Source of the DNA: Balneola sp.
GTDB lineage: Bacteria; Bacteroidota; Rhodothermia; Balneolales; Balneolaceae
Direction: 5' to 3'
NCBI GenBank assembly: GCA_028284195.1
Contig: JANQSE010000002.1
Location: forward strand, 1-64,000
DNA length: 64,000 bases
The stretch's first letter is position 1; each line of letters begins with the position of its first letter. This document shows, piece by piece, positions 11,559-34,717 of this stretch. The position numbers were made by a program, and so were the translations under genes. The notes beneath the pieces were generated by a model. The model was not told the origin of the DNA and did no database searches. It saw only the letters and a program-made list of their open reading frames with translations.

Positions 11559-12563
11559 CTAAACCACTCTTCCAACATCTAAAATCTCTTCTCCCATTTC
11601 TTTTACTTTGGCTTTTACTACTCCTAATGCAGATTCTGAAACCACAGCAACCAAACCAATTCCAAGATTAAATGTTGCCTGCATATCTTCTTCAGGTACA
11701 TTTCCAATTTCCTGAATCAAATCATACACCGGTGGACGTTCCCAGCTTTTCCAGTCTATTTCCAAAGTTAACCCTTCCGGTAAAATACGTTTTGTATTTC
11801 CCACCATACCTCCTCCGGTAATATGAGAAAAACCATGTACTCCATCTATTTCCTTTAACGCTGTTATGTGGGGTAAATAAGAACGATGAACCTGAAGTAA
11901 TTCTTCCCCAACAGTACATCCTAATTTTTCCACATAGTCATTCACATCATATTCACTAAAGAGCACTTTTCTGGCTAAAGAATATCCGTTGGTATGTAAA
12001 CCTGAACTTTTAAACCCTACCAATACATCACCTTTTTCAATGCCTGCACCATTTATAACTTTGTCCTCATCAACAATACCTACAATAGTTCCAGCAAGAT
12101 CAAATTCTCCTTCACCATAAATATCAGGCATCTCTGCAGTCTCTCCGCCAATCAGAGCAACTCCGTTTTCTTTACAAGCCGTGGCAAATCCTTTAATCAC
12201 TCCGTATCCAACATTCTGCTCTAACTTTCCTGTAGAAAAATAATCCAGAAAGAATAAAGGGGTAGCTCCGCAAACTGCTATATCATTTACACAATGATTC
12301 ACCAGATCCTGGCCAACGGTATCATATTTTCCAGCCTTAAATGCTACAATAAGCTTCGTTCCAACACCATCCAAAGAACTAACAAAAACGGGATTTTTAA
12401 AAGCTCCAAGATCCGGTTTAAAGAATCCACCAAATCCTCCTATGTTGGATAGAACCGCTTTACTGTGCGTTTCTTTAACCACACCTTTGATAGAACTAAC
12501 CAATTCTTCTCCTGCTTTAATATCAACACCTGAGTCTTTGTAGGTGAATTGCTTCTTAGACAT
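11559..12563 (-). CDS. purM: Phosphoribosylformylglycinamidine cyclo-ligase
   Basis: PurM catalyses the ATP-dependent closure of FGAM to AIR in purine synthesis. The 334-residue length is typical. Family motifs are SSLDGVGTKLIVAFK, GQDLVNHCVNDIAVCGATPLFFLDY (metal/ATP site), IGGETAEMPDIY, SSGLHTNGYSLARKV and GFSHITGGGMVGNTKRILP. The gene is convergent with the potassium channel gene (13-base gap). It begins 5 bases after the YfiT-like gene, suggesting one minus-strand transcript starting near 13.1 kb. Confidence 0.96.
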   Translation of the reverse strand: MSKKQFTYKDSGVDIKAGEELVSSIKGVVKETHSKAVLSNIGGFGGFFKPDLGAFKNPVFVSSLDGVGTKLIVAFKAGKYDTVGQDLVNHCVNDIAVCGATPLFFLDYFSTGKLEQNVGYGVIKGFATACKENGVALIGGETAEMPDIYGEGEFDLAGTIVGIVDEDKVINGAGIEKGDVLVGFKSSGLHTNGYSLARKVLFSEYDVNDYVEKLGCTVGEELLQVHRSYLPHITALKEIDGVHGFSHITGGGMVGNTKRILPEGLTLEIDWKSWERPPVYDLIQEIGNVPEEDMQATFNLGIGLVAVVSESALGVVKAKVKEMGEEILDVGRVV

Positions 12564-12568
12564 GAATT

Positions 12569-13087
12569 TTATGAGTTATTTTTTACCAGTTCTATATGTG
12601 CTAAATGATGATTTCCATGCCAGGCATACATAGCCAGTGCATTTATCAATGTATAATTTATTCCGGATTCAGGATGCTGAAACGTTCTGTTCCAGTCTTC
12701 TTCATTAAACACTTCAAATATCTTAATCCATTTGGCATGCACTGCATCCAGAAAGTTCAATCCCTGTTCAATACTCATCAAATCATAATCACCTAAAGCA
12801 GTCCAGGCACTTTCATTATATGGGCGAATTGTTGGATTATCTTCAGTAAGAGCAAGCTTAAATCTGATTAACGAATTCATATGACTATCACCCATATGAT
12901 GTATTACCTGAAAAGGTGTCCAGCCACCTTCTCTGTATGGAGTATGGAGTTGTTCTTTGGATAATTGTGCAACCAAAGCTCTGACTTTTGATGGAAGCTC
13001 TTTGATATCATTTATGAAACCTTCAGCTTCTGAAACAGAAAAGTTTTTGTCGTAATCAAAATTTCCGATCGGGTATCGCTTATCCAT
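12569..13087 (-). CDS. DinB/YfiT-family putative metal-dependent transferase (BstA-like)
   Basis: This 172-residue four-helix DinB-superfamily protein has the YfiT layout: RYPIGNFDYDKNF near the N-terminus, then GGWTPFQVIHHMGDSHMN and AMYAWHGNHHLAHI. The histidines in the last two would bind a divalent metal. Relatives include bacillithiol S-transferases, but the thiol cofactor of this organism is unknown. The start is taken as the ATG at 13087, one codon inside a TTG. TATATTTA on the minus strand at 13111-13118 is a near-consensus -7 element. Confidence 0.85.
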   Translation of the reverse strand: MDKRYPIGNFDYDKNFSVSEAEGFINDIKELPSKVRALVAQLSKEQLHTPYREGGWTPFQVIHHMGDSHMNSLIRFKLALTEDNPTIRPYNESAWTALGDYDLMSIEQGLNFLDAVHAKWIKIFEVFNEEDWNRTFQHPESGINYTLINALAMYAWHGNHHLAHIELVKNNS

Positions 13088-13090
13088 CAA

Positions 13091-13522
13091 TTCTTCATTT
13101 AATTCTGAAATAAATATACGCTCTTATAAAACTTTTTGAGAGTACTTTTTCCAATTCTTATCCACAGGTAAGAGACAAATAAAATAAGATTTTAAATTTT
13201 GTATTTAGTTATAGGTAATGTGGATTTGTGGAAAAGAAACTTATTCTTTTTCTGAACAATACTTGACACATCTTTGTGGATAGCATTGTTAATTAAGTGA
13301 CTCATTAAAACAGTTACTTAAGAAGGAAGATGTTTTATTATTAACATGTACACCATTTTTATACATATAAACAGATAATTCCTCTTCAACATGAAAAGTT
13401 ATTATATAAAGTTGTTGATTAGGTGAACAAATTGTGGAAACTTGTTGACAACTTTGGGTCATTTCAGTTATCCAATTTTTATTGGAAAGTAATCCACATA
13501 GTAATTCACAAAAAAGTTGTAA
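13091..13522. other. oriC: Candidate chromosome replication origin (oriC)
   Basis: This 432-base gene-free, AT-rich region lies between divergent genes. It has one perfect DnaA box (TTATCCACA, 13158-13166). Single-mismatch boxes lie at 13227-13235 (TGTGGAAAA), 13275-13283 (TGTGGATAG) and 13490-13498 (TAATCCACA), and weaker ones at 13219-13227, 13433-13441 and near 13468. Very AT-rich stretches (about 13179-13215 and 13330-13410) could serve as unwinding sites. Hand-counted samples show G roughly equal to or below C in plus-strand genes to the left, but G well above C to the right. parS palindromes lie 15 kb away. dnaA is not adjacent, and function is inferred. Confidence 0.65.
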
Positions 13523-13963
13523 ATGAAAGTTGTAGTTCAGCGCGTAAAATCAGCTTCAGTAACAGTTGGTAATAAAATAACAGGTGCAATCAGGAATGGT
13601 TTATTGTTACTTGTTGGTATTCATCAGGATGATAGCGTAGAACAGATGAAATGGATGTGTGATAAAATATTAAAGCTTCGCGTTTTTGAAGATGAGGAAG
13701 AGAAAATGAATTTATCAGTTACAGATGTGCAGGGAGGAATTCTTGTTGTCTCTCAATTTACTTTATACGGGGATGCAAAAAAAGGAACCAGACCTAGCTA
13801 TATAGAAGCAGCCCGACCGGAAAAAGCCGAACCTATGTATGAGCAAATGGTCGAGTATTTCAAATCACATTCTGATCTGGATATACAAACAGGAAAATTC
13901 GGCGCTATGATGGATGTGAAATTAGTTAATGATGGACCGGTAACTCTGATTCTGGAGAAATAG
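13523..13963 (+). CDS. dtd: D-aminoacyl-tRNA deacylase
   Basis: DTD hydrolyses D-amino acids mischarged onto tRNA. The 146-residue protein has the full signature: MKVVVQRVKSASVTV, GLLLLVGIHQDD, the catalytic SQFTLYGDAKKGTRPSY, and the C-terminal NDGPVTLILEK, equivalent to the Gly-cisPro region. It starts at the right edge of the candidate origin, divergent from the YfiT-purM transcript. The next gene begins 1 base after its stop. Confidence 0.96.
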   Translation: MKVVVQRVKSASVTVGNKITGAIRNGLLLLVGIHQDDSVEQMKWMCDKILKLRVFEDEEEKMNLSVTDVQGGILVVSQFTLYGDAKKGTRPSYIEAARPEKAEPMYEQMVEYFKSHSDLDIQTGKFGAMMDVKLVNDGPVTLILEK

Positions 13964-26760: not shown

Positions 26761-28644
26761 ATGTCTTCTATTTATCCTTTATACGATGTGATTGTTGTTG
26801 GTGCCGGACATGCCGGAAGCGAAGCCGCTGGCGCGGCGGCAGAGCTGGGAGCGAAAACATTGCTCATTACAATGAATCTGGAAGCAATTGCTAAAATGTC
26901 TTGTAATCCGGCAATGGGTGGGATAGCAAAAGGTCAGCTAGTAAGAGAGATTGATGCATTGGGTGGGCTATCGGGAATTGTAAGTGATACCTCCGGAGTT
27001 CAATTCAAAATGCTGAATAAAAGTAAAGGCCCGGCAATGTGGAGCCCTCGTTGCCAAAGCGACCGGATGTTATATGCCCAAAGAATGAGGGAGTTGCTAG
27101 AGCAAAAAGAAAACTTGTTTTTCAGACAGGATAGTATAGTCGATTTAATCATTCAAGATCAAAAAATACAAGGGGTTATAACTCAAACAGGTCAGAGGTT
27201 TTACTCAAAAAGTGTGGTACTTACAAGCGGAACCTTTTTGAATGGGTTGATTCATATCGGTGATAATAACTATGGAGGGGGGCGTTCGGGAGAAAGGGCT
27301 TCTGTAGGTATTTCTGCAGCATTAGAAAAAGTTGGTTTTGCGGTTGGAAGACTCAAAACAGGAACTCCGCCAAGAGTAGACGGCCGCTCTATTGATTACT
27401 CAAAGCTTGAGGTTCAGGAAGGAGATAAAGAACCCGTGCCCTTTTCTTTTTTAACAGAAGAACTACCTAACAAAGAAGATCAACTAACATGTTGGATTGG
27501 GTATACCAACAATAAAGTTCATGATGTGCTAAAAACGGGTTTTGATCGTAGCCCGATGTTTAATGGAAGAATTAAATCAGCCGGCCCAAGATATTGTCCA
27601 AGCATAGAAGATAAAATAAACCGGTTTGCTGACAGGAGCAGGCACCAATTGTTTTTGGAGCCGGAAGGTTGGAATACTTATGAAATGTATTTAAATGGAT
27701 TTTCCACTTCCCTGCCCGAAGAAGTTCAATATGAGGCTTTGAGGACTATCCCCGGTTTTGAGAATGTGATAATGCTTAGGCCCGGATATGCAATTGAATA
27801 TGATTATTTTCCTCCACACCAAATAAAGAGAACGTTAGAAACAAAGTTAATAGATGGGCTGTATTTTGCTGGTCAAATAAATGGAACAACTGGATATGAA
27901 GAAGCCGCTTGTCAAGGTTTAATGGCGGGAATTAATGCCGCCCTCAAGGTTGGCGGAAAAGAACCTCTAATTCTTAAACGGTCTGAGGCATATATTGGCG
28001 TTCTTATAGATGATCTTATCAATAAAGGTACAGAAGAGCCCTATCGAATGTTTACTTCCAGGGCGGAACACCGAATCTTGCTGAGACAGGATAATGCAGA
28101 TCTTCGCCTTACAGAGATAGGTTACAAAATAGGCTTAGCCAAAAAAGAAAGGCACGAAAAAGTGGTTCAAAAGAGAGAAGAGCTTCATTTGCTTCTTGAT
28201 TTACTTTCCAAAAAAACAGTTCGCCCCGAAGTACTAAACCCTCTTTTGAATGAGCTAAACACATCGGGATTAAGCCAGCCAGTAAAAGCAGAGTCCATCT
28301 TATCTCGACCACAGGTTTCTCTTTTCAGAATGATTGAGGCTGACGATGAATTTAGAAAGGAAGTGGAAAGCATTACGAAAAATAAATATGTTTTGGAACA
28401 AGCAGAGATACAAGTCAAGTACTCCGGGTACATTCAAAAAGAGTTTGAAATGGTAGAGGAGCTGGCCCAGAAAGAAAACACACGAATTCCTGAGTCTTTA
28501 GATTATTCCAAAATCAAAAGCCTCTCTTCAGAGGGGTTGCAGAAAATGTCAAAAATCAGGCCTGAGACGATTGGGCAGGCAAGTAGAATCAGTGGCGTTT
28601 CTGCTAGCGATGTCTCAGTTCTGATGGTTTATCTAAAGAGCTAG
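26761..28644 (+). CDS. mnmG: tRNA uridine-5-carboxymethylaminomethyl modification enzyme MnmG
   Basis: MnmG, with MnmE, installs the cmnm5 group at wobble uridine 34. The 627-residue length is typical. The FAD site is [20 protein letters not shown]. GidA family signatures include [72 protein letters not shown] and the C-terminal [16 protein letters not shown]. It is followed at once by a parS-like palindrome and rsmG. The mnmG-rsmG pair is a classical origin-proximal arrangement. Confidence 0.97.
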
Positions 28645-28659
28645 GTTTCACGTGGAACA
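28644..28659. promoter_or_regulatory. parS: parS-like ParB binding site, copy 1
   Basis: GGTTTCACGTGGAACA differs at two of 16 positions from the consensus TGTTTCACGTGAAACA and keeps the central TTTCACGTG. It lies in the mnmG-rsmG junction and contains the candidate GTG start codon of rsmG. Confidence 0.7.
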
Positions 28660-29293
28660 TAGAATACAGATGCTTAGCAAAGATCAATTTAATGTAGTTG
28701 AGGAGTTGTATGAGAAAAACGTAGATAAGCTAGAAGAATACATAGATCTTTTGCTATGGTGGAATCAGAGAGTTAATCTTGTTAGCAGGGAAGTTTCACG
28801 TGAAACAATTGTTGAACACGTAAAGCATAGTTTGTTTATATCAATCAGTTCTGGTTTCCAAAAAGCAAAAAAGATAATTGATGCCGGCTCAGGTGGCGGG
28901 CTTCCCGGTATCCCTTTAGCAATTTGTTTTCCAGAAAAAAACTTTGGTATTAATGATATTGTGTCAAAAAAAGTTTTCGCAATTAACGATATGATTCAAA
29001 ACCTTAATCTGAGAAACGAAGCCAGAGGAATATTTGGGAATATTTCCGAACAGGTTATTTCAGGCTTTGACCTGATTATAACAAAACACGCATTCAAAAT
29101 GGATGAGCTTTCAGCCCTTTTGAATGGACAAAATTGGGCAAGTATAGTTTTTCTTAAAGGGCATCAGGAGGCGATAGATGAATTTGAAAAAGCTAAACTT
29201 AAAGCTGAACTCAATATTATTAGATTAGACTCAGCATTTATGAATGATTTTTATTTGGGTAAGTCAGTTGTAGAACTTAAGAGAGATTTTTGA
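28652..29293 (+). CDS. rsmG: 16S rRNA (guanine527-N7)-methyltransferase
   Basis: RsmG methylates G527 of 16S rRNA. The 213-residue protein has the family features LLLWWNQRVNLVS, the SAM-binding loop DAGSGGGLPGIPLAICFP, and LIITKHAFKMDELSALL. The GTG at 28652 lies inside parS copy 1; an ATG at 28670 is an alternative that would leave the site non-coding. A second, better parS lies within codons 47-52. The next gene starts on the last base of its stop (TGATG). Confidence 0.94.
   Translation: MEHRIQMLSKDQFNVVEELYEKNVDKLEEYIDLLLWWNQRVNLVSREVSRETIVEHVKHSLFISISSGFQKAKKIIDAGSGGGLPGIPLAICFPEKNFGINDIVSKKVFAINDMIQNLNLRNEARGIFGNISEQVISGFDLIITKHAFKMDELSALLNGQNWASIVFLKGHQEAIDEFEKAKLKAELNIIRLDSAFMNDFYLGKSVVELKRDF
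28792..28807. promoter_or_regulatory. parS: parS ParB binding site, copy 2 (perfect 14-bp core)
   Basis: AGTTTCACGTGAAACA matches the consensus TGTTTCACGTGAAACA at 15 of 16 positions. Its 14-bp core GTTTCACGTGAAAC (28793-28806) is a perfect palindrome. It is located inside rsmG, 148 bases from copy 1. parS sites cluster near the origin and load ParB for chromosome segregation. Confidence 0.88.

Positions 29294-32776: not shown

Positions 32777-34717
<1,941 letters not shown>

Follow-up and report, generated by a model that had tools for sequence, protein, structure and literature searches.

The basal unwinding system of bacterial chromosome origins consists of a DnaA box, a spacer of up to 16 bp and at least three trios of the form NAN (PMC8287927). 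In Bacillus subtilis, box-bound DnaA is guided onto 3'-GAT-5' trios, and the strand that carries these is stretched by it (PMC6669920, PMC8287927). The origin of B. subtilis adjoins dnaA, and dnaA is the default marker gene of origin finders (PMC10225481). Origins apart from dnaA are already known in general (PMC10225481, PMC8287927). Escherichia coli, which gives a weak score for the unwinding system, has an oriC that is not beside dnaA (PMC8287927) and that has gidA and mioC as neighbours (PMC10225481). A full-text literature search on replication origins of Balneola or Balneolaceae returned nothing relevant, while DoriC may already hold a computed prediction for the order. Here we explore an AT-rich gap between divergent genes in a marine relative of Balneola, which an initial annotation had proposed as an origin placed away from dnaA.

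Data and methods

The window analysed covers the first 64 kb of a 697-kb contig, C12, which belongs to a draft genome of 2.68 Mb in 19 contigs. No more than 13 kb of contig C12 belongs to the left replichore, and the remaining contigs of the draft were sampled. Third codon positions were scored separately for plus and minus genes, which limits the effect of coding direction. Dtd of the window is 82-86% identical to that of named relatives (Balneola sp., Balneolaceae). The complete genome used for comparison within the genus (G003) is a single contig of 3.49 Mb whose dtd and dnaA positions match CP030887.1. The strict core pattern used for genome searches was TTNTCCACN{36,62}TAGN{3,6}TGTGGANNNGTNNA.

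Results and discussion

DnaA boxes and layout of the gap

The gap has a G+C content of 26% and is flanked by the genes that had been named, purM and yfiT on one side and dtd on the other, with yfiT and dtd divergent (Table 1). Its one perfect DnaA box and three boxes with a single mismatch lie exactly where the initial annotation placed them, and the weaker boxes that it mentioned amount to eight with two mismatches. The 450 bp before dtd contain four boxes with at most one mismatch, whereas 100 dinucleotide shuffles gave 0.22 on average and never more than 2. Calculated duplex stability places the 60-mers that start at 13166 and 13180 among the weakest 0.4% in the first 464 kb of C12.

Table 1. 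Features of the proposed origin and its surroundings, in window coordinates
Feature	Position	Strand	Remarks
purM	11559-12563		next after yfiT
yfiT (bacillithiol transferase family)	12569..13090	-	left flank of gap
Proposed oriC	13091..13522	.	AT-rich intergenic, yfiT/dtd divergent; skew minimum at 13165
Perfect DnaA box TTATCCACA	13158..13166	+	on far side of AT-rich stretch
Proposed DNA unwinding element	13167..13218	.	low calculated duplex stability
DnaA-trio-like triplets TAG-TTA-TAG	13206..13214	+	3'-GAT-ATT-GAT-5' reading away from boxes
First tandem DnaA box AAATCCACA	13219..13227	-	2 mismatches; 4 bp from trios
Second tandem DnaA box TTTTCCACA	13227..13235	-	1 mismatch; most Balneola relatives have a perfect box
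DnaA box CTATCCACA	13275..13283	-	1 mismatch; position conserved, -248 from dtd
Weak DnaA box TTATTAACA	13338..13346	+	2 mismatches; one-mismatch box here (-185) in most close relatives
Weak DnaA boxes GTTTCCACA, TTGTCAACA	13433..13451	-	2 mismatches each
DnaA box TAATCCACA	13490..13498	+	1 mismatch; position conserved (-33)
Weak DnaA box TAATTCACA	13502..13510	+	2 mismatches; most close relatives have a one-mismatch box at -21
dtd (D-aminoacyl-tRNA deacylase)	13523..13963	+	right flank; synteny anchor
Two parS-like palindromes GGTTTCACGTGGAACA, AGTTTCACGTGAAACA	28644-28659, 28792-28807		mnmG-rsmG junction, 15 kb from proposed origin

With the B. subtilis oriC (incC) the gap shares tandem boxes, a short spacer, 3'-GAT-5' trios that lead into AT-rich DNA and further boxes at a distance. 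It differs from it in having a perfect box beyond the AT-rich stretch and a degenerate middle trio, and in lying 275 kb from dnaA, between dtd and yfiT/purM. Like the E. coli oriC it is not beside dnaA, but its neighbours are other genes, and the unwinding layout that is weak in E. coli is clear here. The tandem boxes, with two mismatches and one, stand within spacer range of the trios, at 4 bp. Since the middle trio is TTA, the window does not strictly follow the published NAN rule for three trios, and the run TAG-TTA-TAG breaks there. Roughly half of the 27 sequences in the alignment have a run of at least three NAN trios, and TAGTAGTAG stands at the trio position in many relatives.

As the layout is that of a DnaA-box and DnaA-trio basal unwinding system, the origin would be expected to work in the ordinary way. 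DnaA would bind the tandem inverted boxes at 13219-13235, assisted by the other boxes, and would then assemble leftward along the TAG trios at 13206-13214 of the plus strand. The AT-rich stretch would be opened leftward through 13167-13205 as far as the perfect box at 13158, whereupon helicase would be loaded and forks would depart both ways. We infer this binding, opening and bidirectional firing at the gap from its layout.

Strand composition

Hand counts of bases in the initial annotation (G72/C86 in a sample to the left of the gap, G93/C57 in samples to the right) were reproduced exactly. As support for an origin it had named a genome-wide skew minimum at about 13.3 kb; over the 464 kb of C12:1-464000, cumulative GC skew is lowest at 13165, within the perfect box. 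The switch in strand composition is real, as third-position skew, (G-C)/(G+C) on the plus strand, flips sign for genes of both strands: left of the gap it is -0.127 for plus genes and -0.105 for minus genes, and right of it +0.184 and +0.117, respectively. Skew is positive in the remainder of C12, as sampled, and on contig C4 positive values give way to negative ones at ~560-600 kb, the change expected of a terminus. Raw GC skew drops again at ~46-115 kb because of a run of minus-strand genes; strand-averaged third-position values there are still positive. The strand-biased heptamer AAGGGGG was too sparse, among the matches listed for three genomes, to place a switch.

A box cluster between divergent genes could also serve as a site of DnaA titration or reactivation, comparable to datA or DARS, or as a DnaA-regulated promoter, with no origin present. 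We regard this as highly improbable, given that the skew minimum and the third-position switch coincide with the gap, that the skew minimum does likewise in two relatives described below, and that the boxes are laid out as in an unwinding system, together with an AT-rich stretch of low stability.

Complete relatives and the distance to dnaA

In the complete genome of the same genus, the sign of the skew switches at 892-960 kb and reverts at ~2.70-2.79 Mb, about half a chromosome away; sampled stretches were negative in 19 out of 19 cases on one side and positive in 16 out of 21 on the other. The fine skew minimum lies at 955,882, ~170 bp from the core motif (955,637-955,713), with the dtd start at 955,347. 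A complete genome from another family of the order (G043) has a local skew minimum at 267.8 kb, with weak, noisy skew away from that switch, and carries seven DnaA boxes at 269.7-270.0 kb, in the dtd-purM interval; its record begins at dnaA, which is at 0.7 kb.

As the initial annotation had stated, dnaA is absent from the window. It is found on the same contig at C12:288.3 kb, ~275 kb from the gap, and cumulative skew keeps rising past it with no turn. In the complete same-genus genome dnaA is at 1.302 Mb, within one replichore and 346 kb from the skew minimum, and skew is positive on either side of it. A further genome (G245; CP051242.1, 3,747 kb) carries dtd at 320 kb; its dnaA, at 3,619 kb, is ~450 kb away round the circle. 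Overall, 270-450 kb separate the dtd-purM/yfiT site from dnaA in the four genomes measured. With dnaA as default marker, origins in the Balneola order would be misplaced by hundreds of kilobases.

According to the initial annotation, a denser conserved array of boxes in another intergenic region would count against an origin at the gap. Within C12:1-464000 a single comparable cluster exists, upstream of dnaA (~289.3-289.6 kb), where three perfect boxes and one with a single mismatch occur within ~270 bp; two of the perfect boxes recur in several relatives among six genomes scanned. These boxes might mark the true origin and leave the dtd region as a secondary DnaA-binding site. Such an arrangement is very unlikely, since GC skew is positive on both sides of dnaA, in contig C12 as well as in the same-genus genome, and the core pattern matches once, at dtd, and never at dnaA. 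Because skew does not change there, dnaA autoregulation is the simplest reading of these boxes, and their spacing would fit a promoter of that kind. The presence of conserved boxes at both loci could also mean that both fire as origins, but a second origin firing at dnaA should be visible as a bend in the skew, and no bend is seen, so that we give this reading hardly any weight.

The features of an oriC that are seen at the gap between dtd and yfiT comprise an intergenic box cluster above chance, a skew switch, an easily opened AT-rich stretch and conservation in relatives. The skew minimum, the same-genus genome and the conserved spacing of boxes support the original reading of the gap as an origin away from dnaA, and we consider it almost certain that positions 13091-13522 are the chromosomal oriC of this Balneola relative. 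As far as we have found, the location between dtd and purM/yfiT is new.

Conservation across the order

At least three boxes with no more than one mismatch are present upstream of dtd in 28 of 29 relatives; in one relative from the order (L040 of G056) dtd is present and the 450 bp upstream of it contain no DnaA boxes. The conserved box spacing that the initial annotation proposed to look for in this intergenic region is seen in the closest relatives, where boxes keep fixed distances from the dtd start, at about -367 (+), -296 (-), -248 (-), -185 (+), -33 (+) and -21 (+). Among the weaker boxes, TGTGGAAAC, the first of the pair at 13433..13451, is conserved in much of the family. Alignment of 27 sequences shows an invariant TTnTCCAC, followed by ~46-50 bp of AT-rich DNA, an invariant TAG that corresponds to the box-proximal triplet, 4-5 bp and an invariant TGTGGA, after which a second box overlaps or adjoins.

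The strict core pattern matches 83 of the 129 genomes of the order, at a single place per genome (in some as two overlapping matches), and the reversed control pattern has no match in any of the 129. The strict pattern is absent from 46 genomes, some of which are incomplete, and five of those that lack it (G043, G036, G040, G021 and G027) still carry 6-9 boxes beside dtd. Since no comparable box cluster lies upstream of dtd in named genomes of unrelated bacteria (Firmicutes and others), the link between cluster and dtd is not general to dtd. In most of the order the origin appears to lie between dtd and purM/yfiT, far from dnaA. For most members of this order of environmental bacteria the gap would supply a coordinate for the origin, on which estimates of growth rate from read depth could draw.

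Sister orders and a possible relocation

In genomes of the same class outside the order, the core pattern has single matches, most of which fall in dense clusters of boxes. The cores of these other orders (L263-L277) share the box, the AT-rich stretch, the TAG triplets and the tandem boxes, and have 4-19 boxes in 500 bp, except for L275 with two. In L265, L267, L270, L274 and L277, which represent several families, comEC adjoins the core; elsewhere the neighbours are other genes. None of dtd, purM and dnaA is encoded within ~4 kb of the sister-order core loci examined. dnaA lies 12-13 kb from the core in the two genomes measured (G205 and G197). G197 has two dnaA genes (C1:554; 1718581, L285), one of them 12 kb from the origin-like core.

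Comparison of these sequences suggests an old oriC core whose surroundings changed from one order to another. On balance we favour a history in which the core layout was kept in the class and its place among the genes changed, with a site beside comEC and near dnaA in the sister orders and a site between dtd and purM, 270-450 kb from dnaA, in the Balneola order. If true, the relocation of a chromosome origin, or of dnaA away from the origin, could be dated here, and it would be a natural case for how an origin parts from dnaA yet retains its core.

Neighbourhood of the proposed origin

The mnmG and gyrB genes and the two parS-like palindromes reported for the window were all found, the palindromes at 28644 and 28792. 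Upstream of gyrB there are a perfect DnaA box (34867) and a box with one mismatch (34887), and a further box is located at 34569, within the gyrB start. Judged by these boxes, gyrBA may be regulated by DnaA.
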